From Geobacter sp. DSM 9736 (lineage in GTDB: Bacteria; Desulfobacterota; Desulfuromonadia; Geobacterales; Geobacteraceae): a DNA stretch of 64,000 nucleotides. Of this stretch, positions 7,393-49,784 are shown one piece after another. The notes under the pieces are model-generated. The model ran no database searches and was not told where the DNA came from. It saw only the letters and a list, made by a program, of their open reading frames with translations. Where the stretch lies: assembly GCF_900187405.1 (NCBI RefSeq), contig NZ_LT896716.1:434001-498000 (forward strand), read 5' to 3'. The position numbers were made by a program, and so were the translations under genes. Within the stretch, counting starts at the first letter, position 1, and each line of letters begins with the position of its first letter.

Positions 7393-7515
7393 CAGCTTGT
7401 TGAAAAACAGCCATCTCGCCGCGGTCGTCGAAAGCCGCCGTGTGCGGCGTAGCGCAGCTATGCCTCCGTGGGGCTTTCTGCGGGTGCGGCGATCTGACTG
7501 TTTTTGAACAACCTG
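7393..7515. repeat. Long interrupted palindrome, probable dispersed repeat (REP/MITE-like)
   Basis: Left arm 7399-7422 (GTTGAAAAACAG then CATCTCGCCGC) and right arm 7486-7512 are imperfect reverse complements. The middle adds paired AAAGCC/GGCTTT and a 7-bp hairpin GCGTAGC-GCA-GCTATGC at about 7446-7462. The whole about 120 bases could fold as one long stem. It starts right after the gnnA stop, carries no reading frame of its own, and separates gnnA from gnnB. From memory, similar palindromes are scattered through Geobacter genomes; copy number was not checked. Confidence 0.65.
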
Positions 7516-7604
7516 CCTGATTCAACAGTCTGGTTATTACTAAATCTCGCGCTGCCGAATGCCTCTTGGTTCGGGCCGAGGCAGAGCGATCCCGAGGTGA
7601 GAAC

Positions 7605-30383: not shown

Positions 30384-30429
30384 GAATCAGGTGGACGTTT
30401 TCGGGCGATTTCCCAATAGAAAGCCAGCC

Positions 30430-32612: not shown

Positions 32613-32628
32613 GTCATAGGAGGGGGCC

Positions 32629-33219
32629 ATGACGAGAGAGCCACTAATACTGGTTGGCGGCGGCGGCCATTGCAAATCGTGCATCGACGTCATCGAACTT
32701 GAGGCGAATTTTGAGATCGTAGGCATTCTTGACCTTCCTGAAAATGTGGGGCAGCAGATCCTCGGTTACCCGGTGATGGGTACCGACGCCGACATTGGAG
32801 GTTTGGCCAAAGAGGTCCGGAATTTTTGTATCACACTCGGTCAGATAAGGAGCCCAGAGAGAAGAATATCCCTCTACCAGCAGCTGAAGATGTACCGATC
32901 ACGGTTGCCGGCGATTATTTCACCATTGGCTCATGTTTCAAGACATGCCATTGTGGGGGAGGGAACGATTGTCATGCACCAGGCAGTGATCAATGCGGGC
33001 GCGCAGGTCGGGATCAACTGTATCATCAATACCAAAGCACTCATTGAGCATGATGCTGTTATCGGTAATCACTGTCATATTTCCACCGCCTCGGTGGTGA
33101 ACGGCGGAGTGACGGTAGGCACTGGGACATTCTATGGCAGCGGTGCTGTCAGCAAACAAGGAATTACCATTGCAGAGAAAAGTTTTGTGAAAGCGAACAG
33201 CCTTGTGACGGGGATTTAA
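32629..33219 (+). CDS. legH: LegH-type sugar N-acetyltransferase (NeuD/PglD family)
   Basis: A 196-residue left-handed beta-helix acetyltransferase that would acetylate the C4 amine formed by LegC. LILVGGGGHCKSCID is the nucleotide-binding start of the NeuD/PglD family. HAIVGEGTIVMHQAVINAGA and NTKALIEHDAVIG lie in the repeats, with His in IEHDAVIG in the usual catalytic-base position. An AGGAGGGG site precedes ATG 32629. It was assigned to the Leg route because it lies between legC and legI. Confidence 0.82.
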   Translation: MTREPLILVGGGGHCKSCIDVIELEANFEIVGILDLPENVGQQILGYPVMGTDADIGGLAKEVRNFCITLGQIRSPERRISLYQQLKMYRSRLPAIISPLAHVSRHAIVGEGTIVMHQAVINAGAQVGINCIINTKALIEHDAVIGNHCHISTASVVNGGVTVGTGTFYGSGAVSKQGITIAEKSFVKANSLVTGI

Positions 33220-33225
33220 ATAGAG

Positions 33226-34140
33226 ATGGTCACGCATCCCTTAGCCGTCGCCGGAGTCATCTATCCTGGAGTTGAGTCTTTTCTCGAGGACTTCCTCGAC
33301 TCTCTCAGAGCTCAGACCTACACTGCCTTCGACCTCCTCATATTCAATGATGGCGTCGATCAAGGGGTGAAGGCGCTCTTTCCCCCGCAAACCGTGTGGC
33401 TTGAGAGCGAGACCCAGATGAGCGTGGCTGAAATCAGGGACTACCTGATCGGCTGCGCACGAAAAAAGTATCTTCAGCTGATCTTCGCGGATTCGGACGA
33501 TTATTTCTCGCCGAACCGGGTTGCGGAATCAGTGCGATGGCTTTCCACCTACGATTTTGTCTATAACGAGGTTTCGCTGGTAGACAAGGGGGGAGGGATC
33601 CAGAAGCCGGAGTATTTCTCATCCATTGGGGTAGCGGAAGAGTTGACACATCCGGCCCAGGTGGAGCATAGCAACATTATTGGTCTGTCGAATTCCGCGG
33701 TGAACCTAGCGCGCCTCCCGGAAGTTGCTATCCCTGCTGATTTGATAGCAGTGGACTGGTGGATCTATACAGTTTCCCTGATTAATGGCCTCAGAGGCCG
33801 GTTCCTGCGGGATGCCATAACCTTTTACCGGCAGTACGACGCGAACACCATTGGGATGAAGGAAGGCCTTACAGAAGAAAAGCTCAGGCTTGGGTTGAAG
33901 GTCAAGAAACTGCACTACGGGAACCTCGTTTGTTACTGCACATCAAGTGGCCGTGTGTCGCTCGCTGAGAGATTCCACAAAAAGTTGGACGAAATTGCGC
34001 GGTTGGAAATGCTGGTAGCTGATCAGTCTGTGTGCCGGCAGTACCTGGATAGGGTGAATGCTGATTACATCAGAATCAACGACGGCTGGTGGAGTGAAAT
34101 AATTTCACTGGATAGGTTGGAGTGTCATGACGTCAAATAG
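33226..34140 (+). CDS. GT2-like glycosyltransferase embedded in the leg genes
   Basis: A 304-residue protein with a GT-A-like beginning (LAVAGVIYPGVESFLEDFLDSLRAQ, split here as a start near residue 5) and FADSDDYFSPNR, a DxD-type metal site. The rest is not close to any family I recognise. It occupies the place between legH and legI where the hydrolysing 2-epimerase LegG is often found, but shows none of that family's motifs. It may transfer the nonulosonate or a neighbouring sugar. It overlaps legI by 14 bases. Confidence 0.6.
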   Translation: MVTHPLAVAGVIYPGVESFLEDFLDSLRAQTYTAFDLLIFNDGVDQGVKALFPPQTVWLESETQMSVAEIRDYLIGCARKKYLQLIFADSDDYFSPNRVAESVRWLSTYDFVYNEVSLVDKGGGIQKPEYFSSIGVAEELTHPAQVEHSNIIGLSNSAVNLARLPEVAIPADLIAVDWWIYTVSLINGLRGRFLRDAITFYRQYDANTIGMKEGLTEEKLRLGLKVKKLHYGNLVCYCTSSGRVSLAERFHKKLDEIARLEMLVADQSVCRQYLDRVNADYIRINDGWWSEIISLDRLECHDVK

Positions 34141-35179
34141 TTTTTACCAGAAAGTATTGACCGGAAAATACCCGTATGTGATCGCCGAGATCGGCTCGAA
34201 CCACAATGGCGACATTGCTCTGGCAAAGGAGATGATCCGCTCGGCGGCTGGTTGCGGGTGCGATGCAGTCAAGTTTCAGTCGTGGACCCCATCCTCATTG
34301 ATCTGCCAGGCGGAGTATGACTGCAATCAGAGCTATGACGACTCTCCCAAAAAGCACTTCGGGTCGCTGCGAGATATGGTAGAGCGTTACTATTTGAGAG
34401 AAGAGCAGCATTTCGAACTGAAGGAGTTTTGCGATCAGATCGGTGTCGACTTTTGCTCTTCCCCTTTTGCCCCTGAGGAGGTCGACCTGTTGTGCAGGAT
34501 CGACGTGCCGTTCATCAAGGTAGCATCAATGGATATCAATAACGACGCGTTACTAAGACACATTGCAGGAAAGGGAAAGCCGGTGGTGCTGTCTACGGGG
34601 ATGGCGTCCATGGCTGAAATCGACAACGCAATAAAGACAATTGAAACTACCGGCAACAACGAAATCGTATTACTGCATTGCATTTCCATCTATCCGCCAG
34701 TTAATGACGACATCAACCTGCGAAACATAGTAATGCTGCAGCAGAGCTTTGGATATCCAGTCGGCTTTTCCGACCATTCCCTAGGGGTTAGTATCCCACT
34801 CGCGTCAGTCGTGCTCGGTGCCAAAGTAATAGAGAAGCATTTCACCACGGATAAAGACCTGCCGGGGTGGGACCATGAAATCTCTGCTGACCCCGGAGAG
34901 ATGAAGAGCATCGTGGTGGAGTCGCATAAGATTTGCGATGCCCTTGGATCGTATAAGAGAATTGTTTCCGGGGCGGAGGAGCAGAAGAAGTCCAAGTTTC
35001 GCAGGAGCATCGTTCTGAAAAAAAATCTAGTAGCCGGCGAGGTAATCGGGCACGAGGATCTTGACTTTAAGCGGCCAGGAACGGGAATACATCCGGACGA
35101 GGTCCGCTATGTTGTTGGCAGAAAGGTGAACCGAAGCATTAATGCTGACGAATTATTGAAATGGAACGATCTTCTTTAG
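34127..35179 (+). CDS. legI: LegI-type nonulosonic acid synthase (NeuB family)
   Basis: It condenses a 6-carbon diamino-trideoxy sugar with phosphoenolpyruvate to make the nine-carbon legionaminic acid. The 350-residue protein has the TIM barrel with VIAEIGSNHNGD, KFQSW, GFSDHS and EKHFTTD (metal-binding His217 and His238), and a C-terminal SAF/antifreeze-like domain (FRRSIVLKKNLVAGEVI). The assignment to Leg rather than Neu or Pse comes from legB, legC and legH upstream and ptmE downstream. Confidence 0.88.
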   Translation: MTSNSFYQKVLTGKYPYVIAEIGSNHNGDIALAKEMIRSAAGCGCDAVKFQSWTPSSLICQAEYDCNQSYDDSPKKHFGSLRDMVERYYLREEQHFELKEFCDQIGVDFCSSPFAPEEVDLLCRIDVPFIKVASMDINNDALLRHIAGKGKPVVLSTGMASMAEIDNAIKTIETTGNNEIVLLHCISIYPPVNDDINLRNIVMLQQSFGYPVGFSDHSLGVSIPLASVVLGAKVIEKHFTTDKDLPGWDHEISADPGEMKSIVVESHKICDALGSYKRIVSGAEEQKKSKFRRSIVLKKNLVAGEVIGHEDLDFKRPGTGIHPDEVRYVVGRKVNRSINADELLKWNDLL

Positions 35180-36246
35180 GCCAGAGTATGCGCGAATACA
35201 GCAAGGTTAAGATCAGTCACAAGTTGGACATCCGTTCTGCTGTGAAAAGTATCAATGAGACGGGAATTGGGTTTGCTGTCATAGTTGACGATGATGATCT
35301 TGTCGTTGGTATCCTGACTGACGGTGATTTTAGAAGAGCTGTCTTGAAAGGTTTGGACCTTAACGACAACGTGCTCAAGATCACCAACCGGGACTTCCGA
35401 TCTTTGCAGTCTGGGTTCTCACAAGAGGAAGCCATTTGTCTGCTGAAAAGTGGAAATTTCACATTTTTACCGGTAATTCAGGACGGTAGACTGATCGGGA
35501 TTCTTTCTGAGAATGACTTGCAACAGCCCGAGATTGGGGCGCTGAATAAGAAACTGCAGTCTGAGGTGGTAATTATGGCGGGTGGTAAGGGGACAAGAAT
35601 GGAACCCTTTACGAAAATACTCCCGAAACCATTGATCCCCATCGGGGACAGGACGATGCTCGAAGTTATTATGGATGAGTATGCGAAATACGGAATCAAA
35701 GATTTTCATATCTCAGTTTGTCATAAAGCAAAAATGATCAAGGCGTACTTTGAGTACATCGAGAATGGGTACAATATTCATTACATCAACGAGGATTCTC
35801 CCCGGGGTACGTGTGGTGCACTGAAGCTGGCCGAGGGGAAGTTCAATGGTCCTTTCTTCGTCTCAAATTGCGACATTATCATCAAAAGTGACTACTCAAA
35901 AATCTTCGAGTATCATCAGTCTCAAGATTTCATGCTCACTATAGTGACATCCATACAGCACATGGTGATCCCTTATGGCGTCTGCGAGTTAAATGATGTA
36001 GGTGGATTAAGCCGGATAAACGAAAAGCCCAAATTCGACTATCTGATAAATACGGGTATGTACGTCCTGAACCCTGAAGTACTTCAATACATTCCGACGG
36101 ATACCTTTTTTGACATTACTGACCTGATTAAGAAGCTTCTCGACCTTAATTTAAAAGTTGGTGTTTATCCGGTTCCCGAACAGTCATATGTGGATGTCGG
36201 TCAGTGGGCAGAGTATAAAAAAGCAATAAACATTTTGACAGTTTAG
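35161..36246 (+). CDS. ptmE: PtmE-like CBS-domain nucleotidyltransferase
   Basis: A 361-residue fusion: two CBS repeats (about residues 10-125; GILTDGDFRRAVLKG and GILSENDLQQ) and a sugar-1-phosphate nucleotidyltransferase (VIMAGGKGTRM at about 137-147, KPLIPIGDRTML). The same architecture in Campylobacter PtmE activates GlcN-1-P with GTP, feeding a GDP-linked Leg pathway, so GDP-sugar intermediates are expected here. ATG 35161 overlaps legI; ATG 35188, nine bases after the legI stop, is a possible later start. The gene is AT-richer than its downstream neighbours. Confidence 0.85.
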   Translation: MERSSLGQSMREYSKVKISHKLDIRSAVKSINETGIGFAVIVDDDDLVVGILTDGDFRRAVLKGLDLNDNVLKITNRDFRSLQSGFSQEEAICLLKSGNFTFLPVIQDGRLIGILSENDLQQPEIGALNKKLQSEVVIMAGGKGTRMEPFTKILPKPLIPIGDRTMLEVIMDEYAKYGIKDFHISVCHKAKMIKAYFEYIENGYNIHYINEDSPRGTCGALKLAEGKFNGPFFVSNCDIIIKSDYSKIFEYHQSQDFMLTIVTSIQHMVIPYGVCELNDVGGLSRINEKPKFDYLINTGMYVLNPEVLQYIPTDTFFDITDLIKKLLDLNLKVGVYPVPEQSYVDVGQWAEYKKAINILTV

Positions 36247-36390: not shown

Positions 36391-37419
36391 GTGGCTGAAA
36401 CGATTAAGATAGGGAACCAGGAAGTAGGAGGGGAAGCGCTCTTCTTCACTATAGAGGAGGGGATGGCGAATCTCGGGAACCTCGATAAGGCCCGCCAGAT
36501 GGTGGATGTCGCTGCCGGCACCGGTGCTGATGCCATCGAGTTCCAAATGGTGGTGGCAAGTGATCTGTACACCGCGGGCTCGCCCGGACACGAATTCTGC
36601 CTCAAGTGCGAGTTCAGTGACACCCAGATTACAGAGCTTGTGCGCTATGTGAAAGGGAGCGGATTAGAGTGTCTGGTGGCACCTCTGAGCCACCGTTTGG
36701 TTGAGGTGCTGGTCGCAGCCGGCTGTTCCGGGTTCAACATTAATGCTTCGGACATCAACAATCCGCTGATCATCGACGCCGTTGCTTCCAGCGGAATTCC
36801 ATTCTTCCTGAGCACACTGCTGGCTACGGAGCAGGAAATTGACTGGGCGGTGAGGCGAATTTTACAGCGGGGTGCATCTCGCTTCTCCCTTTTGCATGGC
36901 CAGCACACCATGATGTCTAGCGGCAACGGCGTCCAACCCGCCCAAACGGCGATTGGCTTCGTGACCACTCTAAAAGAGAGGTATGACGTGCCGGTCGGCT
37001 TCATCGACCATACCCCCTACACCTGGATGCCTGCTGCCGCCGTCTCAGCCGGCGCCGACGTGGTCACCAAGCACATGGCCTTGTCACGGGCAGACCACGG
37101 GCCGGACTGGCAGGTCTGCCTTGAGCCGGAAGAGATGGCGGATGCAGTTGCCTGGGCCCGCGGAATGCGCGTGAGTGTGAAGCGGACTGAGAAGAGGCTT
37201 GCCGATGGGGAGGAATTGGATCGCGGGAAGATGAGGAGGAGCATTGTCTCCGCAAAGCCTCTTGCAGCTGGGAGCGTGATCGGTGCCAATGATCTTGTGT
37301 TCAAGAGACCGGGTAGCGGAGTAGAGCCCCCGAGATTCACGGAGATGATAGGTAAAGTGCTTTTGCGGGACGTCGAGGAGGACGAACAGGTTTATTTTGC
37401 GGATTTTAAGGAGGAATGA
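36391..37419 (+). CDS. Second NeuB/SpsE-family synthase, divergent N terminus
   Basis: A 342-residue paralogue of the nonulosonate synthases, starting at GTG 36391 behind GAGGGCGAAA. The predicted metal ligands remain (His207 in GFIDHTPYT, His228 in VTKHMALS), as does a C-terminal SAF domain (MRRSIVSAKPLAAGSVI). The usual EIGxNHxGD loop is replaced by IEEGMANLGN and the segment around residues 50-75 differs from LegI. It may condense a different sugar, or make a sugar acid distinct from legionaminic acid. A gap of 144 bases with nothing recognisable precedes it. Confidence 0.75.
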   Translation: MAETIKIGNQEVGGEALFFTIEEGMANLGNLDKARQMVDVAAGTGADAIEFQMVVASDLYTAGSPGHEFCLKCEFSDTQITELVRYVKGSGLECLVAPLSHRLVEVLVAAGCSGFNINASDINNPLIIDAVASSGIPFFLSTLLATEQEIDWAVRRILQRGASRFSLLHGQHTMMSSGNGVQPAQTAIGFVTTLKERYDVPVGFIDHTPYTWMPAAAVSAGADVVTKHMALSRADHGPDWQVCLEPEEMADAVAWARGMRVSVKRTEKRLADGEELDRGKMRRSIVSAKPLAAGSVIGANDLVFKRPGSGVEPPRFTEMIGKVLLRDVEEDEQVYFADFKEE

Positions 37420-38213
37420 CAGTGGAACTGGGACTCAAGGGGAGATGCGCGCTGGTTGGCGGGGGGAGCAAAGGGCTCGGCAAAGCCTGCGCCATGCAGC
37501 TTGCACGGGAAGGGGTTAACGTTGCCATCTGTGCGAGGAGCCCGCAAATACTTGAGTCGGCGGCAGCTGAGATCAGGGCGGCGTCCGGTGCGAAGATACT
37601 CCCGATACAGGCCGACCTCTCCAACCTTGAGGACGTGAACCGAACAGTAGCGCAGACACTGGAGGAATTTGGCAGAGTCGACGTGCTCATCGTGAATTCT
37701 GGAGGGCCCCGCCCGGGGAAGTTTGGTGACCTCTCCCGTGAAGACTGGGACGCTGCTTACCGCTCGGTCCTCTACTACGCGGTGGAGTTGTACCGGCTGG
37801 TCATCCCGCAGATGAGGGAGAATAAGTGGGGGAGGATCATCAACATCGCGTCGGCCACTGTGAAGGAGCCTTCCGAGACCCTGCTTCTCTCCAACGTGTT
37901 CCGCACCGGGCTGGTAAGCCTGGCAAAGACTCTGTCGAGGGACCTAATCAAGGATAACGTCACCATCAACACCATCTGCCCCGCCGCGTTCAGGACAGAT
38001 CGGGCCATTCAGCTCATGACTGAGCAGGCGAACAGTCAGGGGATTAGCATTCAAGAGGTGGAGCAAAAGATTGTGGAGGGACTGCCTCTCCAGAGGTTCA
38101 ATGCTCCGGAGGAACTCGCGAACCTCGCCCTGTACCTATGCTCGAATCTTGCCCTGGGTATCACGGGGACAACGATTCAAGTTGATGGCGGGTTGCAGAA
38201 GTTCATCTTCTGA
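37416..38213 (+). CDS. SDR-family protein lacking the catalytic Tyr/Lys
   Basis: A 265-residue Rossmann protein of the FabG-like SDR group. VGGGSKGLG (14-22) binds the cofactor and IINIASAT carries Ser146. Where YxxxK should lie, the sequence is Ser159-Asn-Val-Phe-Arg163, so both Tyr and Lys are replaced. A subgroup of FabG-like SDRs with this loss is known. A PtmA-like position in the nonulosonate operon suggests sugar oxidation or reduction, but the missing residues make that uncertain. It overlaps the NeuB paralogue by ATGA. Confidence 0.72.
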   Translation: MTVELGLKGRCALVGGGSKGLGKACAMQLAREGVNVAICARSPQILESAAAEIRAASGAKILPIQADLSNLEDVNRTVAQTLEEFGRVDVLIVNSGGPRPGKFGDLSREDWDAAYRSVLYYAVELYRLVIPQMRENKWGRIINIASATVKEPSETLLLSNVFRTGLVSLAKTLSRDLIKDNVTINTICPAAFRTDRAIQLMTEQANSQGISIQEVEQKIVEGLPLQRFNAPEELANLALYLCSNLALGITGTTIQVDGGLQKFIF

Positions 38214-38230: not shown

Positions 38231-39025
38231 ATGAAAATAACCGCGCTGATACAGGTAAGAATGAAATCCGAACGGCTTCCGGGTAAGGCGCTTCTTCCGG
38301 TGGACGGCACTCCGGTCATTGGGCACGTCGTGGAAAACCTCAGGGAGTCAAGGTACCTGGACGACATCGTCATCTGCACCACCCGGGAAAAAGATGACGA
38401 CGCTTTGGAGGCCTTCGCGGTCGACAAGGGAGTCGCAGTGTACCGCGGCGACGTCGAGGACGTAATCAAGAGGTTCCACGGCGCGGCGCTGTGCCATGGC
38501 GGCGACGTCATCGTCCGCATCGCCGGCGACTGCCCGATCGTGAGCGTGGACGCGGTGGACCTTCTGGTGGAAAACCATTTGGCCGCGGGGGTAGATTATA
38601 CCTCGATAGAGCCGGATGCGACACCGATAGGGTCCTTCCCGCAGGTATTCTCCTTCCAGGCGCTGGACCGGCTGACTCGCTACCCGCTCGACTTCAACTA
38701 CAGTGAGTACATGCTTTACTACTTCACGAACAATCCTGAAGTGTTCTCGCTGAACACTGTCCCGGTACCGGCACAGTACCGCTACCCGCAGTACCGCCTG
38801 ACCCTCGACTACGAGGAGGACCTGAGGATGTTCGAGGCACTCTTCAAAAAGCTACGCGAGTATCGTCTGTCTTTCAGCCTTAAGAACGTTCTGCTCGTGC
38901 TGCAGCGCCACCCGGCGATCGCTGAGCTCAACTCGCACTTGATCCCCAAATACAAGAACATCTACGACGGCCTGATGGACGCCATACACCGCGCGACCAC
39001 CATCACTTCGCCGCTTCCGAGGTGA
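38231..39025 (+). CDS. SpsF-like cytidylyltransferase
   Basis: A 264-residue nucleotidyltransferase with ALIQVRMKSERLPGKAL and VIVRIAGDCPIVS, the marks of the CMP-sugar synthetase relatives called SpsF. It probably activates the nonulosonic acid (or related 2-keto acid) with CTP, replacing the NeuA/LegF-type enzyme that is otherwise absent. SpsF and SpsE (NeuB-like) genes occur together in Bacillus spore-coat clusters, so this gene and 36391 may form a pair. AGGAAG precedes the ATG. Confidence 0.78.
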   Translation: MKITALIQVRMKSERLPGKALLPVDGTPVIGHVVENLRESRYLDDIVICTTREKDDDALEAFAVDKGVAVYRGDVEDVIKRFHGAALCHGGDVIVRIAGDCPIVSVDAVDLLVENHLAAGVDYTSIEPDATPIGSFPQVFSFQALDRLTRYPLDFNYSEYMLYYFTNNPEVFSLNTVPVPAQYRYPQYRLTLDYEEDLRMFEALFKKLREYRLSFSLKNVLLVLQRHPAIAELNSHLIPKYKNIYDGLMDAIHRATTITSPLPR

Positions 39026-39029
39026 AGAA

Positions 39030-40163
39030 GTGATTTACTGTAAGAAATGCCTGCAGCCTAACACCCGCCCGAACATAAAGTTCAACGAGGAAGGCGTCTG
39101 CCCGGGGTGCCTCTACGCCGCCACCCTCGTCGATGTTGATTGGGCCAGCCGCCAAAGCATCCTCAAGGAGATCTGCGAGTTCGGCAGGGCGCACAACTCT
39201 TCGGGTTATGATTGCATCATAGGGGTGAGTGGGGGGAAGGATAGCACACGCCAAGCGCTTTATGTGAAGCATGTACTGAAGCTGAAGCCCCTGCTGGTTT
39301 CCTGCATTTTCCCCCCGGAGCAGATCACTCACCGCGGCGCGTACAACGTCGAGAACATGATCAAGCACGGCTTCGATACCGTGACCATCGGCCCCGCCCC
39401 TGGGATCTGGCGCGAGAACATGAGGCACGGCTTCTTCAAATATGGCAATTGGCAGAAATCGACGGAACTCGCACTTTTCAGCACGGTGCCAAGGCTCGCC
39501 ACCGCATACCAGATTCCCCTAATTTTTTGGGGGGAGAACCCGGCGCTCACACTGGGGGAACTCGGGACCAACTCCTTGGACTATGAGGGGAACCAGATGA
39601 AGCACGGAAACACTCTGGCGGGGGGGGATCCCTCCTGGATGTTCTCGGACAACATAAAGCTCAGGGACCTGCTCTGCTACAGCTACCCCTCCGACGAAGA
39701 CATGGAGCGGGCCAAACTGCGCATCATCTACCTCGGCTATTTCTGGAAGATCTGGTCCAAGAAGGACAACGGCTCCTTTTCCTGCCTGCATGGCCTCGAC
39801 ATCCGCGACGACCGCCCGGAGGATATGGGGGACATCATGGGAGTGGACGCTCTGGACGAAGACTGGATGAACATGAATCAGATGATCAAGTACAGGAAGT
39901 TCGGCTTCGGGCGTGTTACCGAGTTCGTCAACGAGGAGATCAGGTTTGGCCGGATGACCAGGGAGGAGGGGATCAACCTGGTTACCCGTTACGACGGTAA
40001 AATATCTGAAAAGATTATCGCAGATTACTGCAGATACCTCGAGATTTCGGTCGAGGAGTTCCACCGCGTGGTAGATTCTTTCACCAATGAGGAGATATTC
40101 CAACGGGATGCCCGGGGGGAGTGGAAGCTCAGATATCCGATCGGTGGTACCCATGCGCAATAA
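39030..40163 (+). CDS. N-acetyl sugar amidotransferase, WbpG/PseA family (copy A)
   Basis: A 377-residue PP-loop ATP pyrophosphatase-type enzyme that turns an acetamido group into an acetamidino group with ammonia from HisH. Zinc-ribbon cysteines are Cys4, Cys7, Cys24 and Cys27; the PP-loop is SGGKDS (67-72). It starts at GTG 39030 after GAGGTGAAG. The following HisH/HisF pair is the expected partner, and the nonulosonate genes upstream suggest the substrate is a Leg- or Pse-like acid or its precursor. Confidence 0.85.
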   Translation: MIYCKKCLQPNTRPNIKFNEEGVCPGCLYAATLVDVDWASRQSILKEICEFGRAHNSSGYDCIIGVSGGKDSTRQALYVKHVLKLKPLLVSCIFPPEQITHRGAYNVENMIKHGFDTVTIGPAPGIWRENMRHGFFKYGNWQKSTELALFSTVPRLATAYQIPLIFWGENPALTLGELGTNSLDYEGNQMKHGNTLAGGDPSWMFSDNIKLRDLLCYSYPSDEDMERAKLRIIYLGYFWKIWSKKDNGSFSCLHGLDIRDDRPEDMGDIMGVDALDEDWMNMNQMIKYRKFGFGRVTEFVNEEIRFGRMTREEGINLVTRYDGKISEKIIADYCRYLEISVEEFHRVVDSFTNEEIFQRDARGEWKLRYPIGGTHAQ

Positions 40164-40785
40164 GATTGTGATAATTGACTATGGGGTAGGGAACGTGCAC
40201 TCGGTGGCCCACGCCCTGAAGTTCCTCGGGTACCGCAATGTGGTCTCGAGGGAACCTGAGGTGATCGCGCAGTCCGATGCCTTCGTTCTCCCGGGGGTGG
40301 GGGCCTATAGTGAGGCGGCCGTGAACTTGGAGCGCTATAACCTCGTCGAGGTGCTGAATCGCGAGGTGGTGGAAAGGGAGAAGCCACTTCTTGGAATCTG
40401 CCTTGGCATGCAGATACTTGGGAACTGCTCGCAGGAGTCCCCCGGCTACCGCGGCCTTGGCTGGATCGACTTCGACGTGGTGGAGATACCCGCTGGGCAG
40501 GATCTTAAGGTTCCGCATGTGGGATGGAACACGGTCACGGCCCGGGAAGAGCACTTCCTCCTCAGGAACCTCGAGGAGGAACCCCACTTCTACTTTGACC
40601 ACAGCTATTACGCCCATGCCAAGAAAGCCGCTGTTGCCGCCTACTGCGACTACGGCAGCCAGCTTCCCGCCATAGTCACCAGCGGCAACGTGGTCGGCGT
40701 ACAGTTCCATCCGGAGAAGAGCCAGAACAACGGCCTGAAGCTTTTCAGAAACTTCTTCAATTATTTCGGGGTGAAGCCTTGCTAA
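40153..40785 (+). CDS. hisH: HisH-like glutamine amidotransferase for sugar amidination
   Basis: A 210-residue class I glutaminase, cutting glutamine to release ammonia for the partner synthase. Cys83 in GICLGMQ and His186/Glu188 in FHPEK form the triad, so the glutaminase looks intact. Lying among amidotransferase genes and not in a his operon, it belongs to the WbpG/HisH2/HisF2 type of system. ATG 40153 overlaps the previous gene by 11 bases; the frame is open back to 40087 but only within that gene. Confidence 0.88.
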   Translation: MRNKIVIIDYGVGNVHSVAHALKFLGYRNVVSREPEVIAQSDAFVLPGVGAYSEAAVNLERYNLVEVLNREVVEREKPLLGICLGMQILGNCSQESPGYRGLGWIDFDVVEIPAGQDLKVPHVGWNTVTAREEHFLLRNLEEEPHFYFDHSYYAHAKKAAVAAYCDYGSQLPAIVTSGNVVGVQFHPEKSQNNGLKLFRNFFNYFGVKPC

Positions 40786-41651
40786 AGAAACGGATCATTG
40801 CGACCCTCATCGTTCGTGAGGGGATCGTAGTGCAGAGCATCAACTTCCGCAAGTATCTTCCGGTAGGGAAGCCGGAAATAGCCATCGAATTCCTGAACTC
40901 CTGGGGAGTTGACGAGATCGTTGTGGTCGACATCACGGCTAGTAAGGACAGGGGGCGCAAGGACTACCGCTTCGTGAACGGCATCACCCGTTCCTGCTTC
41001 GTCCCGCTTACCGTCGGCGGCGGCATCGACTGCATTGAGGACATCCGCTCGCTGCTTAACTTAGGTGCCGACAAGATCTGCATCAACTCCCATTGCCTTG
41101 GCTCCCCAGAGTTCATCACTGAGGCAGCCGACATCTTCGGGAGCCAATGCATCGTGGTCTCTATCGACGTGGCGGGAAATTGCGAAAGCGACTATTTCGT
41201 CTACGATGCGTCGCGCGGGGTGGTGACCGACCTGCGGCCGCTAGAGTGGGCGAAGGAGGTGCAGAAACGGGGTGCCGGCGAGATCTACCTCACCTCCGTG
41301 GAGCGAGACGGGAGCAAGGCGGGCTATGACCTGAAGCTTGTTGACACGATCGCCAGCGGAGTCGAGATTCCGGTGATCGCAAGCGGCGGTGCGGGAAACG
41401 CAGGCGACATCCACGAAGTCTTCTCCAAGACCGGCGCCAGCGCGGCCTCTGCGGCCAATTTCTTTCACTTCTTCGAACACAGCGTCATAACCACCAAGGC
41501 GGCCCTTACCAGGTCCCACGACGCCATCAGGCTCAACACGCATGCCAGCTACGCCAAGGCCGACTTCGACGGCGACTTCAGGCTAAGGAAGCTGGCCGAT
41601 GAGTACCTTCGTGACCTGCTGTTCGAAAGGATCCAGAAGGAAGTGATATGA
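40779..41651 (+). CDS. hisF: HisF-like protein without catalytic Asp11 (sugar amidination)
   Basis: A 290-residue (beta-alpha)8 barrel related to imidazole glycerol phosphate synthase. Residue 11, an essential Asp in true HisF, is Ile (RIIATLIVREG), while Asp130 is retained (VVSIDVAG). The C terminus is about 40 residues longer than normal. It probably serves as an ammonia channel or scaffold between HisH and the PP-loop enzymes and not as a cyclase. TTG 40779 overlaps the hisH stop. Confidence 0.85.
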   Translation: MLKKRIIATLIVREGIVVQSINFRKYLPVGKPEIAIEFLNSWGVDEIVVVDITASKDRGRKDYRFVNGITRSCFVPLTVGGGIDCIEDIRSLLNLGADKICINSHCLGSPEFITEAADIFGSQCIVVSIDVAGNCESDYFVYDASRGVVTDLRPLEWAKEVQKRGAGEIYLTSVERDGSKAGYDLKLVDTIASGVEIPVIASGGAGNAGDIHEVFSKTGASAASAANFFHFFEHSVITTKAALTRSHDAIRLNTHASYAKADFDGDFRLRKLADEYLRDLLFERIQKEVI

Positions 41652-42898
41652 ACTACTGCAAGCGCTGTCTCTACCCCTCCAATCACCCACTGTACCTTAC
41701 TTTCGATAACGAGGGGGTCTGCTCCGGGTGTCGAGTGCACGAGGAGAAGGACATCCTGGACTGGAACGAGCGGGCCCGAAAGCTGGCCCGCATCTTCGAC
41801 GAGTACCGCAACCGATCGGGCGCCAACTACGACTGCATCATACCGGTGAGCGGCGCAAAGGACTCCTACTTCATCGTGCACACGGTGAAGAACGTCTTCA
41901 AAATGAACCCGCTGCTGGTCTCGTACAACAAGCAGTACAACACAGAGATCGGCATCAGGAACCTCGCCTACCTGAGGACCAGCTTCGACTGTGACTTCTA
42001 TCAAATGACAGTCTCACCGGAAACGGTGAAGAAGGTAACCCGTGCGACCCTGAGGAAGAGGGGGAGCATCTATTGGCACTGCATCGCCGGACAAACTGTC
42101 TATCCGGTCCAGATGGCGGCTAAATTCAAGATCCCTCTGATTGTCTGGGGTGCGCACCAAGGGGTAGACCAGGTCGGAATGTTCTCACATCTGGACGAAG
42201 TAGAGATGACCCGCAAGTACCGCAAAGAGCACGACCTGATGGGGCTTGAGGCGGAGGACCTGGTGGACGACTTTGACTTCCTCGGCGAGCAAGACCTGGC
42301 CCCGTTTTTCTACCCGGATGATAAGGAGTTGGAAAGCGTCGGGGTGCGTGGTATCTACCTGAACAACTACATTCGCTGGGACAGCAAACAGCAGCATGAA
42401 GAGATGATACGGCTCTATGGCTACGAGACGGCCGACCAGACAAGGACTTTCGACCGCTACAACGATATTGATTGCTTTAACTATTCTGATTTGCACGATT
42501 ACATCAAGTTCCTGAAATGGGGTTACGGGAAGGTGAACGACCATGTGGCCCGGGAGATACGATTGAAAAGGCTCACCGCAAACCAAGGGGCGGAGCTGAT
42601 ACAGCAATATCTTTACCGAAAGCCACAACACTTGGCAAAGTTCCTGGAGTGGATCGGGATGTCGGAGCGCGGCTTCAATTTCATCATCGACCAGCACCGC
42701 AGCTCCCAGGTCTGGGAACGGGACGGCGATTGGAATTGGCAACGTAAAGCTGCTTTCGATCAATCTCTGATTGATGATTCCTTTGATGCAGTAGCGCTTG
42801 AAAAGAAAGGAGCTTGCGAGTTCGTCCTAACCCCGAGCAGGAACCCCGCTCATAAAGAAGACCGATATGTCCTAGTCGGTAAGGGCTATGTTGATTGA
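41648..42898 (+). CDS. N-acetyl sugar amidotransferase, WbpG/PseA family (copy B)
   Basis: A second 416-residue PP-loop enzyme placed after the same HisH/HisF pair. Cys4, Cys7, Cys25 and Cys28 are kept; the PP-loop reads SGAKDS (68-73) with Ala for the second Gly. It has an extra C-terminal tail of about 40 residues compared with copy A (377 residues). It could amidinate another position or sugar, or work with copy A as a heteromer. It starts in an ATGA overlap with hisF. Confidence 0.8.
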   Translation: MNYCKRCLYPSNHPLYLTFDNEGVCSGCRVHEEKDILDWNERARKLARIFDEYRNRSGANYDCIIPVSGAKDSYFIVHTVKNVFKMNPLLVSYNKQYNTEIGIRNLAYLRTSFDCDFYQMTVSPETVKKVTRATLRKRGSIYWHCIAGQTVYPVQMAAKFKIPLIVWGAHQGVDQVGMFSHLDEVEMTRKYRKEHDLMGLEAEDLVDDFDFLGEQDLAPFFYPDDKELESVGVRGIYLNNYIRWDSKQQHEEMIRLYGYETADQTRTFDRYNDIDCFNYSDLHDYIKFLKWGYGKVNDHVAREIRLKRLTANQGAELIQQYLYRKPQHLAKFLEWIGMSERGFNFIIDQHRSSQVWERDGDWNWQRKAAFDQSLIDDSFDAVALEKKGACEFVLTPSRNPAHKEDRYVLVGKGYVD

Positions 42899-44298: not shown

Positions 44299-45821
44299 CA
44301 TCAAAAATAATGGATTTCATAAACGAGGTAGAAGGAGTTTTTCCCGTAGACCGCTGGGAGGTCGATGGCTTGAAAGTCTGGCCTCTAATTCGTATCCACC
44401 TTTATTTTTCACTTTTTGCTCATCACCATGTAAAAGTCACTACACGACCTAGACGCAATAAATATGTTGCGGCTGTCAATAACATTGTCACCGATATTTT
44501 CAAATTTGCTTATGCGAACTACAAAGACGAGAAAAAATGCGCTGCTCTCAAGGAATCAGATGTATTGTTTTTAAGTGACGGGATATCATTTGCTAGTGTG
44601 GATGGATATTGGTATGAGAAATTTTGCGATCCTTTGATAAGCGCCTTAAGCGACAAGGAACTCTCTTCCTTGTTGATTACTCCTTCAAGCCGTTATCTTG
44701 TTCCGAGAAATACATCTTCCAAATTTATTCAGCCGGGCCTTAGCCTTGCTAAGATACAAGGAGTTCTGCATTCTAAACTCAAGCCAGCATTACGTTGTGA
44801 TTTGCCGGAATTTCAAGAGTTCATCAATTTTGTAAATGATGCAGATGTGGGCATTTCTGTTCCGAACCTTGATGAGCTAACTCGATTGATATCGTGTCTC
44901 AATCAATATGTTATCTATTATGACAAGATTCTGGACAATGTCAGGCCACAAATAGCTGGTATTGTTTGCTATTACAACATTGAGGGCTTGGCTTTTTGTC
45001 TGGCGTGCAGAAAAAACGACATTCCATGTTTTGACCTCCAGCATGGATTGCAAGGACCTTTGCATGTGGCTTACGGGCGATGGAACAAGGTGCCACAGGA
45101 TGGGTATGAAATGCTTCCTTCTTTGTTCTGGTGCTGGAGCGAATCAGAAGCTTCCGCTATCAGGCAATGGAGCCATGCCGCTGATAGCTATCATCACCCG
45201 ATAGTGGGTGGGAACCCGTGGCTGAATTTGTGGAAACGAAACGCCAGTGAGTTGACAACCAAATACGACAAAATTATCACTAATTCCAGCAAAATGGGCT
45301 GGCAACAAAAGAGAGTAATTATCTCTCTGCAATTTGGTGTTGATGATAAAGAAACACTTCAGCCAATACTGGATACAGTAGCTGGCTCTGACTCTTCATA
45401 TTTCTGGTGGATACGGCTTCACCCGTGTATGCTCGAAAAAAGAAGTGTTGTCAAAGAAATGTTTGACACTTGTGGAAACACAAACATTAATATTGATGAG
45501 GCTACCGATTTGCCTCTTTATGCTTTGCTACGCCATGCAGACCTCCATGTTACCCATAGTTCCTCAACTGTGATAGAAGCGGAAAGCTTCGGCGTTCCTT
45601 CCATAATTACAAGTGAGTATGGCGCAGAGTTTTTTCCGGATCAGATAGCTTCTGGGTGGGCTGTTTTGGCTTTAAAGAAAGATGTCATTTATGAGGCTAT
45701 TGCCCGGCAAATACAGCGTTATCCCAAACGTCCGGTGGTCGATGATATAAATGAATCACCTGCCATGGAATACATGGTGGAAGTCGCTAAAAACAAACGG
45801 AAGGTAATGAAATGTCAGTAA
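44292..45821 (+). CDS. Unidentified GT-B-like protein, candidate nonulosonate/sialyl-type transferase
   Basis: A 509-residue soluble protein I do not recognise. The C-terminal half reads like a GT-B transferase: QHGLQGP near the middle, WWIRLHPCML and later HVTHSSSTVIEAESFGVPSI (here given in part as HSSSTVIEAESFGVPS). The His-Pro and Ser-Ser pair recalls the HP and S/SS motifs of bacterial sialyl- and polysialyltransferases. AT-rich codon use matches wzx. With two nonulosonate synthases nearby, a role in transferring that sugar is reasonable but untested. ATG 44292 overlaps wzx by seven bases. Confidence 0.5.
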   Translation: MLTSKIMDFINEVEGVFPVDRWEVDGLKVWPLIRIHLYFSLFAHHHVKVTTRPRRNKYVAAVNNIVTDIFKFAYANYKDEKKCAALKESDVLFLSDGISFASVDGYWYEKFCDPLISALSDKELSSLLITPSSRYLVPRNTSSKFIQPGLSLAKIQGVLHSKLKPALRCDLPEFQEFINFVNDADVGISVPNLDELTRLISCLNQYVIYYDKILDNVRPQIAGIVCYYNIEGLAFCLACRKNDIPCFDLQHGLQGPLHVAYGRWNKVPQDGYEMLPSLFWCWSESEASAIRQWSHAADSYHHPIVGGNPWLNLWKRNASELTTKYDKIITNSSKMGWQQKRVIISLQFGVDDKETLQPILDTVAGSDSSYFWWIRLHPCMLEKRSVVKEMFDTCGNTNINIDEATDLPLYALLRHADLHVTHSSSTVIEAESFGVPSIITSEYGAEFFPDQIASGWAVLALKKDVIYEAIARQIQRYPKRPVVDDINESPAMEYMVEVAKNKRKVMKCQ

Positions 45822-46828
45822 AATTCGCAATTGTAGGTTGTGGCGCGATAGGTTCACGCCATGCTGCTGTCATCGATGCTGAAGCCAGAGGCAGTATAGT
45901 TACGTTCTGCGATACAGTCTCAGAGAAAGCTCGTCTGCTTTCCGAGAAGTATGGCAATGATATAACATGCTACACTGATTACGATGAGATGCTGGCATCG
46001 ACAGATGCTACGGTAGTCAATATATGTACCCCTCATGGTCTGCATGCTGAAATGGCTATCAAAGCAGCAAATGCTGGCAAGCATATTCTTGTTGAAAAAC
46101 CAATGGCTTTAACGGTAGCAGATTCCATGGCTATGATTAAAGCCGCCGAAGAGAACTCTGTTCATTTGATGGTAGTAAAACAAAACCGTTTTAATGTGCC
46201 TATTGCCTTAACAAAACAGGCCATTGATAGTGGTAAACTCGGAAGAGTTTTTATGGCTCAATGTGATGTTTTGTGGAACAGGCATGACGGCTACTATGCC
46301 GAATCCAACTGGAGGGGGAGCAAGACACTGGAAGGGGGTGCTCTCTATACTCAGGCGAGTCACTTCATCGATCTCCTTAACTGGTGGTTTGGTGATGTGG
46401 TCGCGGTTCAGGCTGAGATCGCCACCCGGAACCACTCCATCGAAATTGAGGATTGCGGTAACGCTCTGCTGACTTTCGATTCCGGGGTCATGGGGAGCCT
46501 CACCTGGACTACGTGCGTCTACAACAAAAACTACGAAGGAAGCATTACCATTATTGCAGAGAATGGCACCATCAAGATCGGAGGGCCGTATCTTAACAAG
46601 ATCGAATATTGGGATGTCAAGGCCATGCCGCTGCAGGATGACATCATCTTTGTAGATAAGCCGAACGCCTATGGAAAATACCAGGGAACCAGTTCGAATC
46701 ATGACAAGGTAGTTGCCAATGTCGTCTCAAAGCTCTTGAATGAGCGACATCACGTAGTTGAAGGCGATGAGGGAATCATGTCCATAAGGGCCATCGAGAT
46801 GATTTATAAACATGCACGGATGGTGTGA
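45812..46828 (+). CDS. wbpB: WbpB/WlbA-like UDP-GlcNAcA 3-dehydrogenase
   Basis: A 338-residue Gfo/Idh/MocA oxidoreductase with FAIVGCGAIGSRHA and Glu95-Lys96-Pro97 (LVEKPMAL). In Pseudomonas WbpB oxidises C3 of UDP-GlcNAcA; the acetyltransferase, aminotransferase, HisH, HisF and WbpG genes that follow fit the acetamidino-uronic acid route. Codon composition changes within the gene: AT-rich to about position 46290, then GC-rich. The functional WbpA substrate supplier is not in the window. Confidence 0.85.
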   Translation: MSVKFAIVGCGAIGSRHAAVIDAEARGSIVTFCDTVSEKARLLSEKYGNDITCYTDYDEMLASTDATVVNICTPHGLHAEMAIKAANAGKHILVEKPMALTVADSMAMIKAAEENSVHLMVVKQNRFNVPIALTKQAIDSGKLGRVFMAQCDVLWNRHDGYYAESNWRGSKTLEGGALYTQASHFIDLLNWWFGDVVAVQAEIATRNHSIEIEDCGNALLTFDSGVMGSLTWTTCVYNKNYEGSITIIAENGTIKIGGPYLNKIEYWDVKAMPLQDDIIFVDKPNAYGKYQGTSSNHDKVVANVVSKLLNERHHVVEGDEGIMSIRAIEMIYKHARMV

Positions 46829-46837
46829 GGAGATACG

Positions 46838-47314
46838 ATGCACGAGCCGATCATAAAGGAATCAGCAATCAGGGATGTAGAATTCGGTGAAAATGTAGTA
46901 GTCGTAATCCCTGTCAACATGTATGAATGCAGCATCGGTGACAATTCATTTGTCGGTCCTTTTGTAGAGATCCAAAAAGGGGTTCGCATAGGACATCGCT
47001 GCAAGATTCAGTCGCATGCTTTCATATGCGAGTTGGTGACGATCGGAGACGACTGTTTCATCTCCCATGGTGCCATGTTCATCAACGATACCTTTGCTGG
47101 CGGCGGCCCGGCCAGAGGGCGGAAAGAATTATGGAGATCCACTTCGATAGGGAACAACGTATCGATAGGGACTAATGCGACCATCCTGCCGGTGAAGATC
47201 TGCGACAATGTCGTGATCGGCGCAGGTGCGGTTGTCACGAAGGATATTGCCGAGCCGGGTATATACGCGGGGAACCCGGCCCGGAAAATTGGGGGCTGTG
47301 AACGATGCCGGTAA
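46838..47314 (+). CDS. wbpD: WbpD/WlbB-like 3-amino-uronate N-acetyltransferase
   Basis: A 158-residue hexapeptide-repeat acetyltransferase (VFGPFVEIQ-type turns; [18 protein letters not shown] here) ending in [10 protein letters not shown]. It would acetylate the 3-amine of UDP-GlcNAc3NA after WbpE. A short family length and its place between wbpB and wbpE make the call firm. Start ATG 46838 follows GAGGAGA. Confidence 0.86.
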
Positions 47315-48408
47315 AATTCCTCGATCTACAATCCCAGTACCATACAATCAAGCCCGACATCGATGCAGCAATCGAGTCGGTGATACGCGAGTCTTCGTTC
47401 ATAGGTGGGAAACATGTTGCTGCGTTCGAGGAGCGTTTTGCAGAGTACCACCATGTGAACCATTGCATCGGGGTGGGGAACGGGACCGACGCCCTCGAAA
47501 TCGCTATCGAAGCCTGCAGCCTTCCTCCAGGCTCCGAGATCATCGTGCCCGGAAACAGTTTCATCGCTACGGCAGAGGCCGTGACCAGGGCAGGCCACAG
47601 AGTGGTATTCGCCGATGTCGATCCCGGGTGCTACACACTGACGGCAAATACGGTGCTCCAGAAGGTGACTGCGAGGACCGCAGCCATTATCGCCGTCCAC
47701 CTCTACGGGCACCCGTGCGACATGGGACCGCTCACGGAGTTCTGCTCCGACCGGAACCTCGTTCTGATCGAGGACTGCGCTCAGGCCCATGGCGCCGAGT
47801 ACTGCGGCCGCAGGATCGGTGGGATCGGCCACATCGCCGCCTTCAGCTTTTACCCGGGGAAAAACCTCGGTGCCTACGGCGACGGCGGAGCTGTCACTAC
47901 ACAGGACGAGGAACTCGCCCGACGTGCGCGAATGATTGCGAATCACGGTCGCCTTGCAAAATACGACCACGAGTTCGAGGGGCGGAATTCTCGCCTGGAC
48001 GGTCTCCAGGCGGCAATTCTCAACGTCAAGCTTTCCAGCCTCGACGCATGGACACGGCACAGGATAGAAGTCGCTGATGTTTACCTTCGTGAGCTCGCAG
48101 ACCTCGATGGGCTCACTCTGCCGGTGCGAAATGATTGGGCGCGGCAGGTTTATCATCTTTTCGTTGTTCGAAGCCAGCGGAGGGATGCGTTAAAAACCTT
48201 CCTGGCGGGAAAGGGGATCGAGACCGGCATTCATTATCCGATAGCTCTCGCCAAACTGAGGGCGTATGCTTATCTGGGGGCGCCGGACATGTCGGCATTC
48301 TGTAACACAGCCGACTCTACACTGCTCAGCCTGCCGATCGGGGAGCACATGTCGCGGGAGCACGTCGATGAAGTTTCGTCCGCGGTGAGAGAATTCTTCG
48401 GGCGCTGA
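47305..48408 (+). CDS. wbpE: WbpE/WlbC-like UDP-3-keto-GlcNAcA aminotransferase
   Basis: A 367-residue DegT-type PLP enzyme; the lysine is Lys186 in [11 protein letters not shown], with [10 protein letters not shown] for PLP binding. With wbpB it turns UDP-GlcNAcA into its 3-amino derivative. It overlaps wbpD by ten bases. The wbpB/wbpE pair is the uronate counterpart of gnnA/gnnB in the lipid A section: the same two-enzyme chemistry appears twice in this window. Confidence 0.88.
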
Positions 48409-48409
48409 C

Positions 48410-49024
48410 ATGATCACTATCATCGATTACGGCATGGGGAACCTCGGTTCCATACGGAACATGCTCAAGAAGATAGGTGCCGAGTCGCGAATATCCGGAG
48501 ACCCATCCGTCGTTGCGGAATCGGACAAGCTGATCCTCCCAGGCGTCGGATCCTTCGACGCGGGGATCAGAAACCTCTCCAATTCCGGGCTGATGCAAGT
48601 GCTCAGCGAGCGGGTCACCGAGAGGAAGGTTCCGGTACTGGGAATTTGTCTCGGTATGCAGCTCATGACCAGGAAAAGCGAAGAGGGGACTCTGCCGGGG
48701 CTGGGCTGGGTCGATGCCGAGACCGTCCGATTCAGTCCTCCTGCAGGCTCTACGCTGAAAGTTCCTCACATGGGTTGGAATACCGTGACTGCGGCGAAGG
48801 AATCGCCGCTTTTCAGCGGTGCGGAGCCGGAAGAGCGTTTCTATTTCGTTCACTCCTACTACGTGCGATGCCTGAACCGTGAGGATGTTCTCCTCACGGC
48901 GGAACATGGACAAGAATTCGATGCGGGATTCTGCTGCGGCAACGTAGCCGGTGTTCAATTCCATCCCGAGAAGAGTCACAAGTTCGGCATGCGTTTCCTG
49001 CGCAACTTCGTGGAGGTCTTCTAA
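48410..49024 (+). CDS. hisH: Second HisH-like glutamine amidotransferase
   Basis: A 204-residue class I glutaminase with Cys80 in GICLGMQ and His185/Glu187 in FHPEK, so the catalytic triad is intact. It is the ammonia supplier for the WbpG-type enzyme encoded at 49781. It starts one base after the wbpE stop. The gene is not part of a his operon. Confidence 0.9.
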   Translation: MITIIDYGMGNLGSIRNMLKKIGAESRISGDPSVVAESDKLILPGVGSFDAGIRNLSNSGLMQVLSERVTERKVPVLGICLGMQLMTRKSEEGTLPGLGWVDAETVRFSPPAGSTLKVPHMGWNTVTAAKESPLFSGAEPEERFYFVHSYYVRCLNREDVLLTAEHGQEFDAGFCCGNVAGVQFHPEKSHKFGMRFLRNFVEVF

Positions 49025-49025
49025 C

Positions 49026-49784
49026 ATGCTTCGCACCCGCGTCATACCGTGCCTCCTCCTGAAGGGGCAGGGGCTAGTGAAAACCCAGAAATTCAAGGAT
49101 CCAAAGTATGTTGGCGATCCGATCAATGCCATAAAGATCTTCAACGAAAAAGAGGTGGACGAACTCGTGCTGCTCGACATTGCAGCTTCGGTGGAGGAGC
49201 GCGAACCCAACTTCAAGATCATCGAAGAAGTGGCCAGCGAATGTTTCATGCCCCTCGGTTACGGCGGCGGCATCAGGTCGCTCGAGCAGATAAAGACGAT
49301 CTTTTCCCTGGGGGTCGAAAAGGTGATCATTAATACCTCGGCCCACGACAGCCCCGATCTTGTCAGGGCTGCCTCAGACACCTTCGGCAGTCAGAGCATT
49401 GTCGTATCCATCGACGTGAAGAAGAATTTCTTCGGGAAATACGAGGTGCATACCCTGTCTGGATCGAGGAACACGAAACAGGATCCGGTTCAGTATGCCC
49501 TTGAAATGGAGCAGCGCGGCGCCGGAGAGCTGATTTTGAATTCAGTTGATCGGGACGGGATGATGGCAGGCTATGATCTGCAGCTCGTCTGCAGGGTTGC
49601 CGGGGCCGTAGGTGTTCCCGTCATTGCCTGCGGAGGTGCCGGAAACGTCGCACACCTTGCCGAAGCTGCTGCGCGGGGTGCATCGGCCCTTGCCGCCGGA
49701 AGCATGTTCGTCTTCCAAGGGAAGCACCGTGCGGTACTGATCAGCTACCCCGAACGCAAGGAACTCGAGCGGTACCTTCAATGA
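49026..49784 (+). CDS. hisF: Second HisF-like protein without catalytic Asp11
   Basis: A 252-residue TIM barrel of the HisF family. Residue 11 is Leu in place of Asp (VIPCLLLKGQG) while Asp130 remains (VVSIDVKK). The two HisF copies in the window have therefore lost the same residue but with different substitutions. Probably it passes ammonia from HisH to WbpG. ATG 49026 follows the hisH stop by one base; the frame open to 48951 lies within hisH. Confidence 0.87.
   Translation: MLRTRVIPCLLLKGQGLVKTQKFKDPKYVGDPINAIKIFNEKEVDELVLLDIAASVEEREPNFKIIEEVASECFMPLGYGGGIRSLEQIKTIFSLGVEKVIINTSAHDSPDLVRAASDTFGSQSIVVSIDVKKNFFGKYEVHTLSGSRNTKQDPVQYALEMEQRGAGELILNSVDRDGMMAGYDLQLVCRVAGAVGVPVIACGGAGNVAHLAEAAARGASALAAGSMFVFQGKHRAVLISYPERKELERYLQ

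Follow-up and report, generated by a model that had tools for sequence, protein, structure and literature searches.

Two amidotransferase-type proteins of separate ancestry flank one HisH/HisF pair in a conserved four-gene cassette

Here we describe a four-gene cassette in which two N-acetyl sugar amidotransferase-type (NASAT; WbpG/PseA-like) proteins, called A and B below, flank a single HisH-like glutaminase and a single HisF-like barrel in the order A-HisH-HisF-B. The cassette lies in a 64,000-nucleotide stretch of the genome of Geobacter sp. DSM 9736 (contig NZ_LT896716.1, positions 434,001 to 498,000), referred to as the window, whose coordinates are counted from its first base (Table 1). 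The same gene order recurs in many phyla, A and B belong to separate NASAT lineages, and B carries altered residues in its PP-loop and at E169. We conclude that the cassette is a conserved, mobile four-gene unit that has been passed between very distant microbes. We tentatively favor, at a little less than an even chance, a model in which it encodes a heteromeric machine that amidinates an N-acetylated nonulosonic acid, with A carrying out the chemistry and B serving as a partner with a degraded ATP site.

Two PP-loop NASATs around one HisH/HisF pair, with all four genes overlapping, had been proposed in a first-pass annotation of this DNA, and the open reading frames and profile searches bear this out. 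Counted from the inner ATG of HisH (the mechanically called frame begins at 40087), successive genes overlap by 11, 7 and 4 bases. Both A (297.7 bits) and B (337.8 bits) exceed the cut-off of 203.2 for TIGR03573 (WbuX), and HisH scores 230.8 bits against TIGR01855 (cut-off 105.4). A and B share 28% identity, B being the longer by 39 residues. The chemistry of NASATs, their SGGXDS and tetracysteine motifs and the role of WbpG are covered in the available portion of PMC10607449. The tetracysteine zinc motif is complete in all 30 A rows and all 35 B rows compared. A carries SGGXDS and B (SGAKDS) does not, and we therefore file A as a NASAT and B as a NASAT-like paralogue despite its TIGR03573 score. 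The predicted model of B (predicted local distance difference test score, pLDDT, 89.4) aligns with the solved structure of LpNASAT (8WEX) over 342 residues with a Z-score of 37.8 and a root mean square deviation of 2.3, although residues 172-177, directly past position 169, have a pLDDT below 50. The model-based comparison is for B; A matches 8WEX by sequence (4e-32).

The first-pass annotation had called for a search for this gene order across genomes, allowing that it might be unique to one decayed cluster. It is not. With B as the query against the contigs of 84,980 species genomes we recovered 30 loci, 26 of which have the exact A-HisH-HisF-B order, and the order occurs in four further genomes as well (G628, G1275, G1323 and G1279). 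The remaining loci comprise a rearranged HisH-HisF-B-A cluster in a member of the Nitrospirota (L041), two contigs that start at HisH (L046 and L048), and L060, where A and HisH are missing and an aminotransferase-HisF hybrid frame (6387-7385) directly precedes an intact B, perhaps through misassembly or deletion. A partial A (55%) lies on another contig of the L046 genome; a search of the L048 genome, whose contig is cut at HisH, found no A. By their labels the B loci span Omnitrophota, Bacteroidota, Chlorobiota, Cyanobacteriota, Pseudomonadota, Planctomycetota, Nitrospirota, Lentisphaerota, Verrucomicrobiota and Myxococcota, together with Saganbacteria (L060), the candidate phyla Curtissbacteria and Staskawiczbacteria, and an archaeon, a Woesearchaeote. 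The G+C content around cassette loci ranges from 0.25 to 0.70 and roughly matches that of each contig, and the B frame is open in 30/30 loci, that of L052 being cut by the contig end. One scan of viral contigs found no relative, and among plasmids 10 of 72,556 records matched at 1e-30, with a best identity of 32% and no close B. Marine groups labelled as abundant are among the carriers: the cassette is present in L042 (Prochlorococcus) and L059 (Pelagibacteraceae), and its HisH-HisF-B part in L048 (Prochlorococcus). Environmental carriers in culture include Flavisolibacter longurius and Sediminibacterium goheungense. In L053 (4424-11281) three NASATs are lined up with two HisH/HisF pairs, the last four genes forming the cassette; its B has TGCGDS.

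The association of A with B was also assessed from the A side, using A as the query in four phylum genome samples and defining a close A by at least 47% identity. A close A was present in 2/395 genomes of the window's own phylum, and in 4/395, 1/299 and 4/237 genomes of the phyla of L036, L055 and L033. All 11 of these genomes carry B beside the HisH/HisF pair (in G722 B is cut by the contig end). Of these, only G628, G1275, G1323 and G1279 add to what the B scan had given; the other seven are the window's genome (G000), the sample centres G397, G395 and G410, which hold L036, L033 and L055, and genomes already seen (G181 is apparently that of L061, and G490 and G722, from the Bacteroidota sample, are probably those of L035 and L052). 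Conversely, a B that lacks A was seen only twice, in L060 and in L048, whose contig is cut.

To place A and B among NASATs we used two trees. One holds 105 NASATs, derived from 110 domains (those below 320 residues excluded) that gave 102 distinct rows plus three from the window. The other, a quicker tree of 144 rows, adds 42 from newer loci, restricted to domains of at least 320 residues; it omits the long or odd rows WIN_C, L059 A and L084, and also L137-L140 and L181-L184, which other loci already represent. In the 105-NASAT tree A and B each form one clade (100/100) and are not sisters, and the 144-row tree concurs. A recent duplication giving rise to A and B is thus rejected in favor of two separate old clades. 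The closest kin of B are NASATs that sit behind a HisH-HisF of their own (L066-L069, L072 and L099), and this sister group includes HisF-NASAT fusions in a single frame (L070, 8025-10103; L071, 6697-8757; L177, 16506-18599; L179, 505-3018), whereas A is placed in another part of the tree. An extra NASAT lies some kilobases from the fusion in L070 and in L177. In 28 rows, made up of the window and 27 loci, the path lengths of B, HisF and HisH track one another, with correlations of 0.86-0.90 (B-HisF 0.89, B-HisH 0.86); for A-HisF and A-HisH the value is 0.57 in both cases. From the trees and these path lengths we infer that HisH-HisF-B came first and that A was added later. B is also the better conserved of the two, with a median identity of 0.595 versus 0.497.

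The residues at the active site set B apart. As a reference we took the 24 columns in which at least 95% of 44 other NASATs agree. A matches every one of them, and B deviates in three, namely the third and fourth PP-loop residues and E169. Among the rows of the 144-row set, the third PP-loop glycine (Gly70) is present in 30/30 A rows, 3/3 basal A rows, 13/13 rows of the B sister group and 63/63 other NASATs, but in only 6/35 B rows; E169 is likewise present throughout (30/30, 3/3, 13/13 and 63/63) and in 0/35 B rows. An acidic residue at position 174 is found in 35/35 B rows, 12/13 sister rows and 63/63 others. Twelve WbpG-like NASATs (above 33% identity over more than 250 residues, and including a third NASAT encoded in the window) allow these changes to be ranked: all 12 have the third PP-loop glycine and the acid at 174, and from these rows only the glycine, of the three positions changed in B, is general and its loss thus the strongest sign of an altered ATP site. 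As proof that B is dead, E169 and the PP-loop lysine are weakened, since the WbpG-like proteins have neither. Elsewhere in B, a C-terminal end resembling YxLIGKG is found in 27/30 loci (in one of the other three the contig stops short), and a stretch like WGAHQGxDQVGMFSH is mostly retained. On balance these comparisons of residues lean toward an inactive B. A strictly complementary loss, in which A has given up acid 174 and B Gly70 and E169, is a possibility that we hold weakly, because basal A proteins that occur without B also lack the acid and many A proteins have one three residues later (27/29 A rows; 1/3 among the later rows L171-L173).

The barrel of the cassette is HisF-like and falls below three curated cut-offs (TIGR03572, 259 versus 299.7; TIGR00735, 238.2 versus 294.55; NF038364, 226.4 versus 310), and the TIGR03572 and NF038364 scores place it outside the curated WbuZ and AglZ-HisF2 amidination-associated families. 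It has Ile at position 11, opposite Asp11 of the solved HisF-LUCA (4evz). The genome has another hisF at 3572258 (395.2 bits), and the cassette's HisH/HisF are therefore not needed for histidine. The ammonia gate of HisF, which we take to be R5, E46, K99 and E167, has its equivalents in R5, E46, K99 and E168 of the window protein; across 33 cassette rows, split frames and gaps included, these positions hold R in 30, E in 28, K in 24 (R in another six) and E in 31. Judged by these residues, the barrel would be a channel that no longer performs the cyclase step. At its C-terminus the barrel is extended by some 35 residues (about 41541-41648 in the window). This tail is long in 24/30 cassettes, is modelled mostly with low confidence (60, 66, 66 and 41 in successive ten-residue blocks from residue 251) and may fold only with a partner. 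A role for the tail in holding the second NASAT is unsupported: six of the 30 cassettes (L054-L059) are short-tailed and nevertheless carry both A and B.

What sugar the cassette might act on was approached through its neighbors, counted in the 30 cassette loci and in 20 other NASAT loci with query genes from L036, which is itself counted, so that the bias favors cassettes; several of the counted loci are cut by contig ends. A NeuB relative is frequent in both groups (21/30 and 16/20) and so marks NASATs generally. The first-pass suggestion that a nonulosonic acid is amidinated thus finds nonulosonic genes nearby, but the NeuB link on which it leaned is not specific to the cassette. A Gfo/Idh oxidoreductase (16/30 versus 0/20), a GNAT acetyltransferase (19/30 versus 4/20) and a polysialyltransferase-like gene (9/30 versus 0/20) differ between the groups. 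The genes of L036 run NeuB, PseF, Gfo/Idh, DegT aminotransferase, polysialyltransferase-like gene, GNAT, A, HisH, HisF, B, with PseF at 296.5 bits (cut-off 205.7) and the polysialyltransferase-like protein at 20.2 bits, below the Pfam threshold of 23.3. Oxidation, transamination and acylation would together give a nonulosonic acid one more amide; an 8-amino nonulosonic acid from the genus Flexibacter appears in the available part of PMC3210612.

What the sequences show is the gene order and how widely it is kept, the different origins of A and B, and the changed residues; how the parts could work together is suggested by these features. We envision a scenario in which HisH hydrolyzes glutamine and frees ammonia, which the HisF-like barrel, having lost its cyclase step, would relay. 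B, descended from a NASAT that sat on a HisF of its own, would dock on the barrel as a partner and, with its ATP site altered, would probably have little or no catalytic activity. The recruit from a different NASAT lineage, A, with its intact PP-loop, would use ATP to convert an N-acetyl group of the sugar into an acetamidino group. The complex, the loss of catalysis in B, the channelling, the substrate and the product are all what we infer. A stricter version, an obligate heteromer in which a once-catalytic B has become a HisF-docked pseudo-enzyme that hands ammonia to the recruited A, possibly with a shared or composite active site, is possible, although we put its chances well short of even. 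Our literature search, which worked mostly at the level of titles and abstracts and reached few subscription journals, found no description of an obligate heteromer with a pseudo-enzyme NASAT in glycan amidination. A parallel in working mode only is provided by tRNA thiolation, where the PP-loop enzyme Ncs6 acts with the PP-loop-degenerate paralogue Ncs2 in sulfur chemistry on tRNA. If B is indeed a pseudo-enzyme, the cassette would illustrate a way for a single HisF to supply a second synthase.

Several observations weigh against a heteromer in which A alone is catalytic. A itself has no acid at 174 (0/33 rows, basal A included), although B and nearly all other NASATs keep it. B retains the PP-loop Asp and Ser, the four cysteines and this second acid, and some B rows keep the canonical PP-loop residues (Gly in 6/35, Lys in 4/35). 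Among the WbpG-like NASATs none has Glu at position 169 (0/12) or Lys as the fourth PP-loop residue (0/12), so that these two changes in B need not abolish activity. The closer correlation of B than of A with HisF vanishes in a 20-row long-tail subset (A-HisF 0.74, B-HisF 0.75) and therefore rests on deeper splits. In the sample of the L033 phylum, G1257 and G1283 carry a 41% relative of A without a close B; HisH/HisF were not found on the contigs bearing these relatives (14.4 and 10.3 kb), which together with the A of L041 form a basal branch in the 144-row tree. Finally, in tandem NASATs of another lineage both sites look canonical.

A strong rival, though less likely than the heteromer, is that neither A nor B has lost activity and that the two perform position-specific amidinations of one nonulosonic acid, fed by one HisH-HisF, to give a sugar with two amidino groups. 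Both frames are kept across local G+C contents of 0.25-0.70, the extra Gfo/Idh and GNAT genes could supply a further amide, and fused or tandem NASATs with two canonical sites do exist behind one pair. NASATs may also differ in position, PseA being assigned 7Am and PtmG 5Am in the available part of PMC13317340, although one abstract instead gives Pse5Am7Ac. Against this, B is altered at the PP-loop glycine and E169, and singly amidinating relatives should be common, yet no close A was seen without B and B lacks A only in the two loci noted above. No sugar with two acetamidino groups was found reported in the same limited literature search. Were both enzymes active, the cassette would predict a doubly amidinated nonulosonic acid, and either outcome renders the little-known NASAT reaction directly testable. 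We consider it unlikely that B is active in some other chemistry on the same sugar, with another acceptor or activation: its catalytic region is altered yet conserved, as are the WGAHQGxDQVGMFSH-like stretch and the YxLIGKG-like end, but its four cysteines, its PP-loop Asp and Ser and its fold are those of a NASAT.

The first-pass annotation had offered three readings, a sugar with two amidino groups, two different sugars or a heteromeric enzyme, and it is because the B site is altered that we favor the last. Two different sugars, one per NASAT, sharing an ammonia source, as PseA and PtmG of Campylobacter maybe do, strike us as very unlikely. Campylobacter is listed with both NASATs and one pair in PMC12102941. 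In the cassette, A and B stay adjoined while the pathway around them varies (in the window LegB/LegC and a CBS-nucleotidyltransferase, at other loci PseF/PseG), and enzymes that act independently should tend to drift apart. Least probable of all is a B that is redundant or in decay, which has only the altered PP-loop in its favor and is contradicted by a B frame that is open in every locus, more conserved than A and found across phyla.

The annotation had also assumed that described systems pair one NASAT with one HisH/HisF, a premise that both Campylobacter and the tandem or fused loci make doubtful. In Campylobacter, the available parts of two papers list PseA (Cj1316c), HisH (Cj1315c), HisF (Cj1314c) and PtmG (Cj1324; PMC12102941) and give CMP-Pse5Ac7Am as the product of PseA and CMP-Leg5Am7Ac as that of PtmG (PMC13317340). 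By these descriptions Campylobacter resembles the cassette in having two NASATs and one HisH/HisF, close by locus tag, and differs in that PtmG lies several genes from the pair and each NASAT is assigned a sugar of its own, Pse for one and Leg for the other. Two NASATs with one pair are thus already listed there; the cassette is distinct by its order, its clades and its altered B, and in the same search, with its limited coverage, the four-gene order was not found described. In L. pneumophila, ORF 28 is called a PtmG homologue in the available part of PMC3766260. LpNASAT (PDB 8WEX), of the L081/L083 clade, shares its fold with the B model and has the tetracysteine site, but it has its own SGGKDS and GENEAEYGN, and its nearest row, L083, falls outside the A and B clades. 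In P. aeruginosa, WbpG is reportedly paired with HisH2/HisF2; by description this is likewise a NASAT with HisH and HisF, with the differences that there is one NASAT per pair and that the sugar is a uronic acid. In the tandem loci L174, L175 and L180, one HisF-HisH precedes two NASATs. Their order (HisF-HisH-NASAT-NASAT) and clades differ from those of the cassette, and both of their sites are canonical SGGKDS; in L174 the two complete NASAT domains occupy one 831-residue frame (7267-9759). In L080 (5983-12574) two NASATs of other clades surround one HisF-HisH, with gaps.

Table 1. Features of the cassette and of the genes upstream of it in the window
Feature	Position	Strand	Remarks
NASAT A	39030-40163	+	GTG start; 377 residues; PP-loop SGGKDS; four Zn-type cysteines; E169 kept; T at position 174
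HisH-like glutaminase	40153-40785	+	Inner ATG chosen; Cys in GICLGMQ and FHPEKS motif, identified by eye
HisF-like barrel	40779-41651	+	TTG start; Ile at position 11; C-terminal tail about 35 residues past the barrel
NASAT-like B	41648-42898	+	416 residues; SGAKDS in the PP-loop; Ala in place of E169; Asp174 retained; YVLVGKG end at the C-terminus
SpsF-like cytidylyltransferase (PF02348)	38231-39025	+	Directly upstream of A
Short-chain dehydrogenase/reductase (SDR) oxidoreductase	37416-38213	+	51% relative at the same place in L034
Divergent NeuB paralogue	36391-37419	+	51% relative at the same place in L034
Legionaminic-type genes	30391-36246	+	LegB, LegC, NeuD-like, weak glycosyltransferase family 2-like gene, NeuB, CBS-nucleotidyltransferase

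The NeuB paralogue and the SpsF-like cytidylyltransferase that the first-pass annotation placed upstream of the cassette are both present (Table 1). The window thereby differs from L036, having the divergent NeuB, the SDR oxidoreductase and the SpsF-like gene before A and LegB/LegC farther upstream; the same trio precedes A in L034, at 51%, 51% and 31% identity. The divergent NeuB scores 184.8 bits against TIGR03569 (cut-off 399.65) and has EFQ where the other NeuB has KFQ, and is possibly a changed synthase. The glycosyltransferase family 2-like gene among the legionaminic-type genes scores slightly below its Pfam cut-off. The window also encodes a further HisH/HisF pair together with a third NASAT (48410-50923), which the first-pass annotation did not mention; these three genes have the look of WbpG/HisH2/HisF2. 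They belong to a separate amidination set (45812-50923) of Gfo/Idh, hexapeptide acetyltransferase, DegT aminotransferase, HisH, HisF and the third NASAT (SGGIDS), which resembles the WbpB/D/E and WbpG/HisH/HisF genes for making a 3-acetamidino uronic acid. The HisF of this set scores 383.4 bits against NF038364, above the cut-off.

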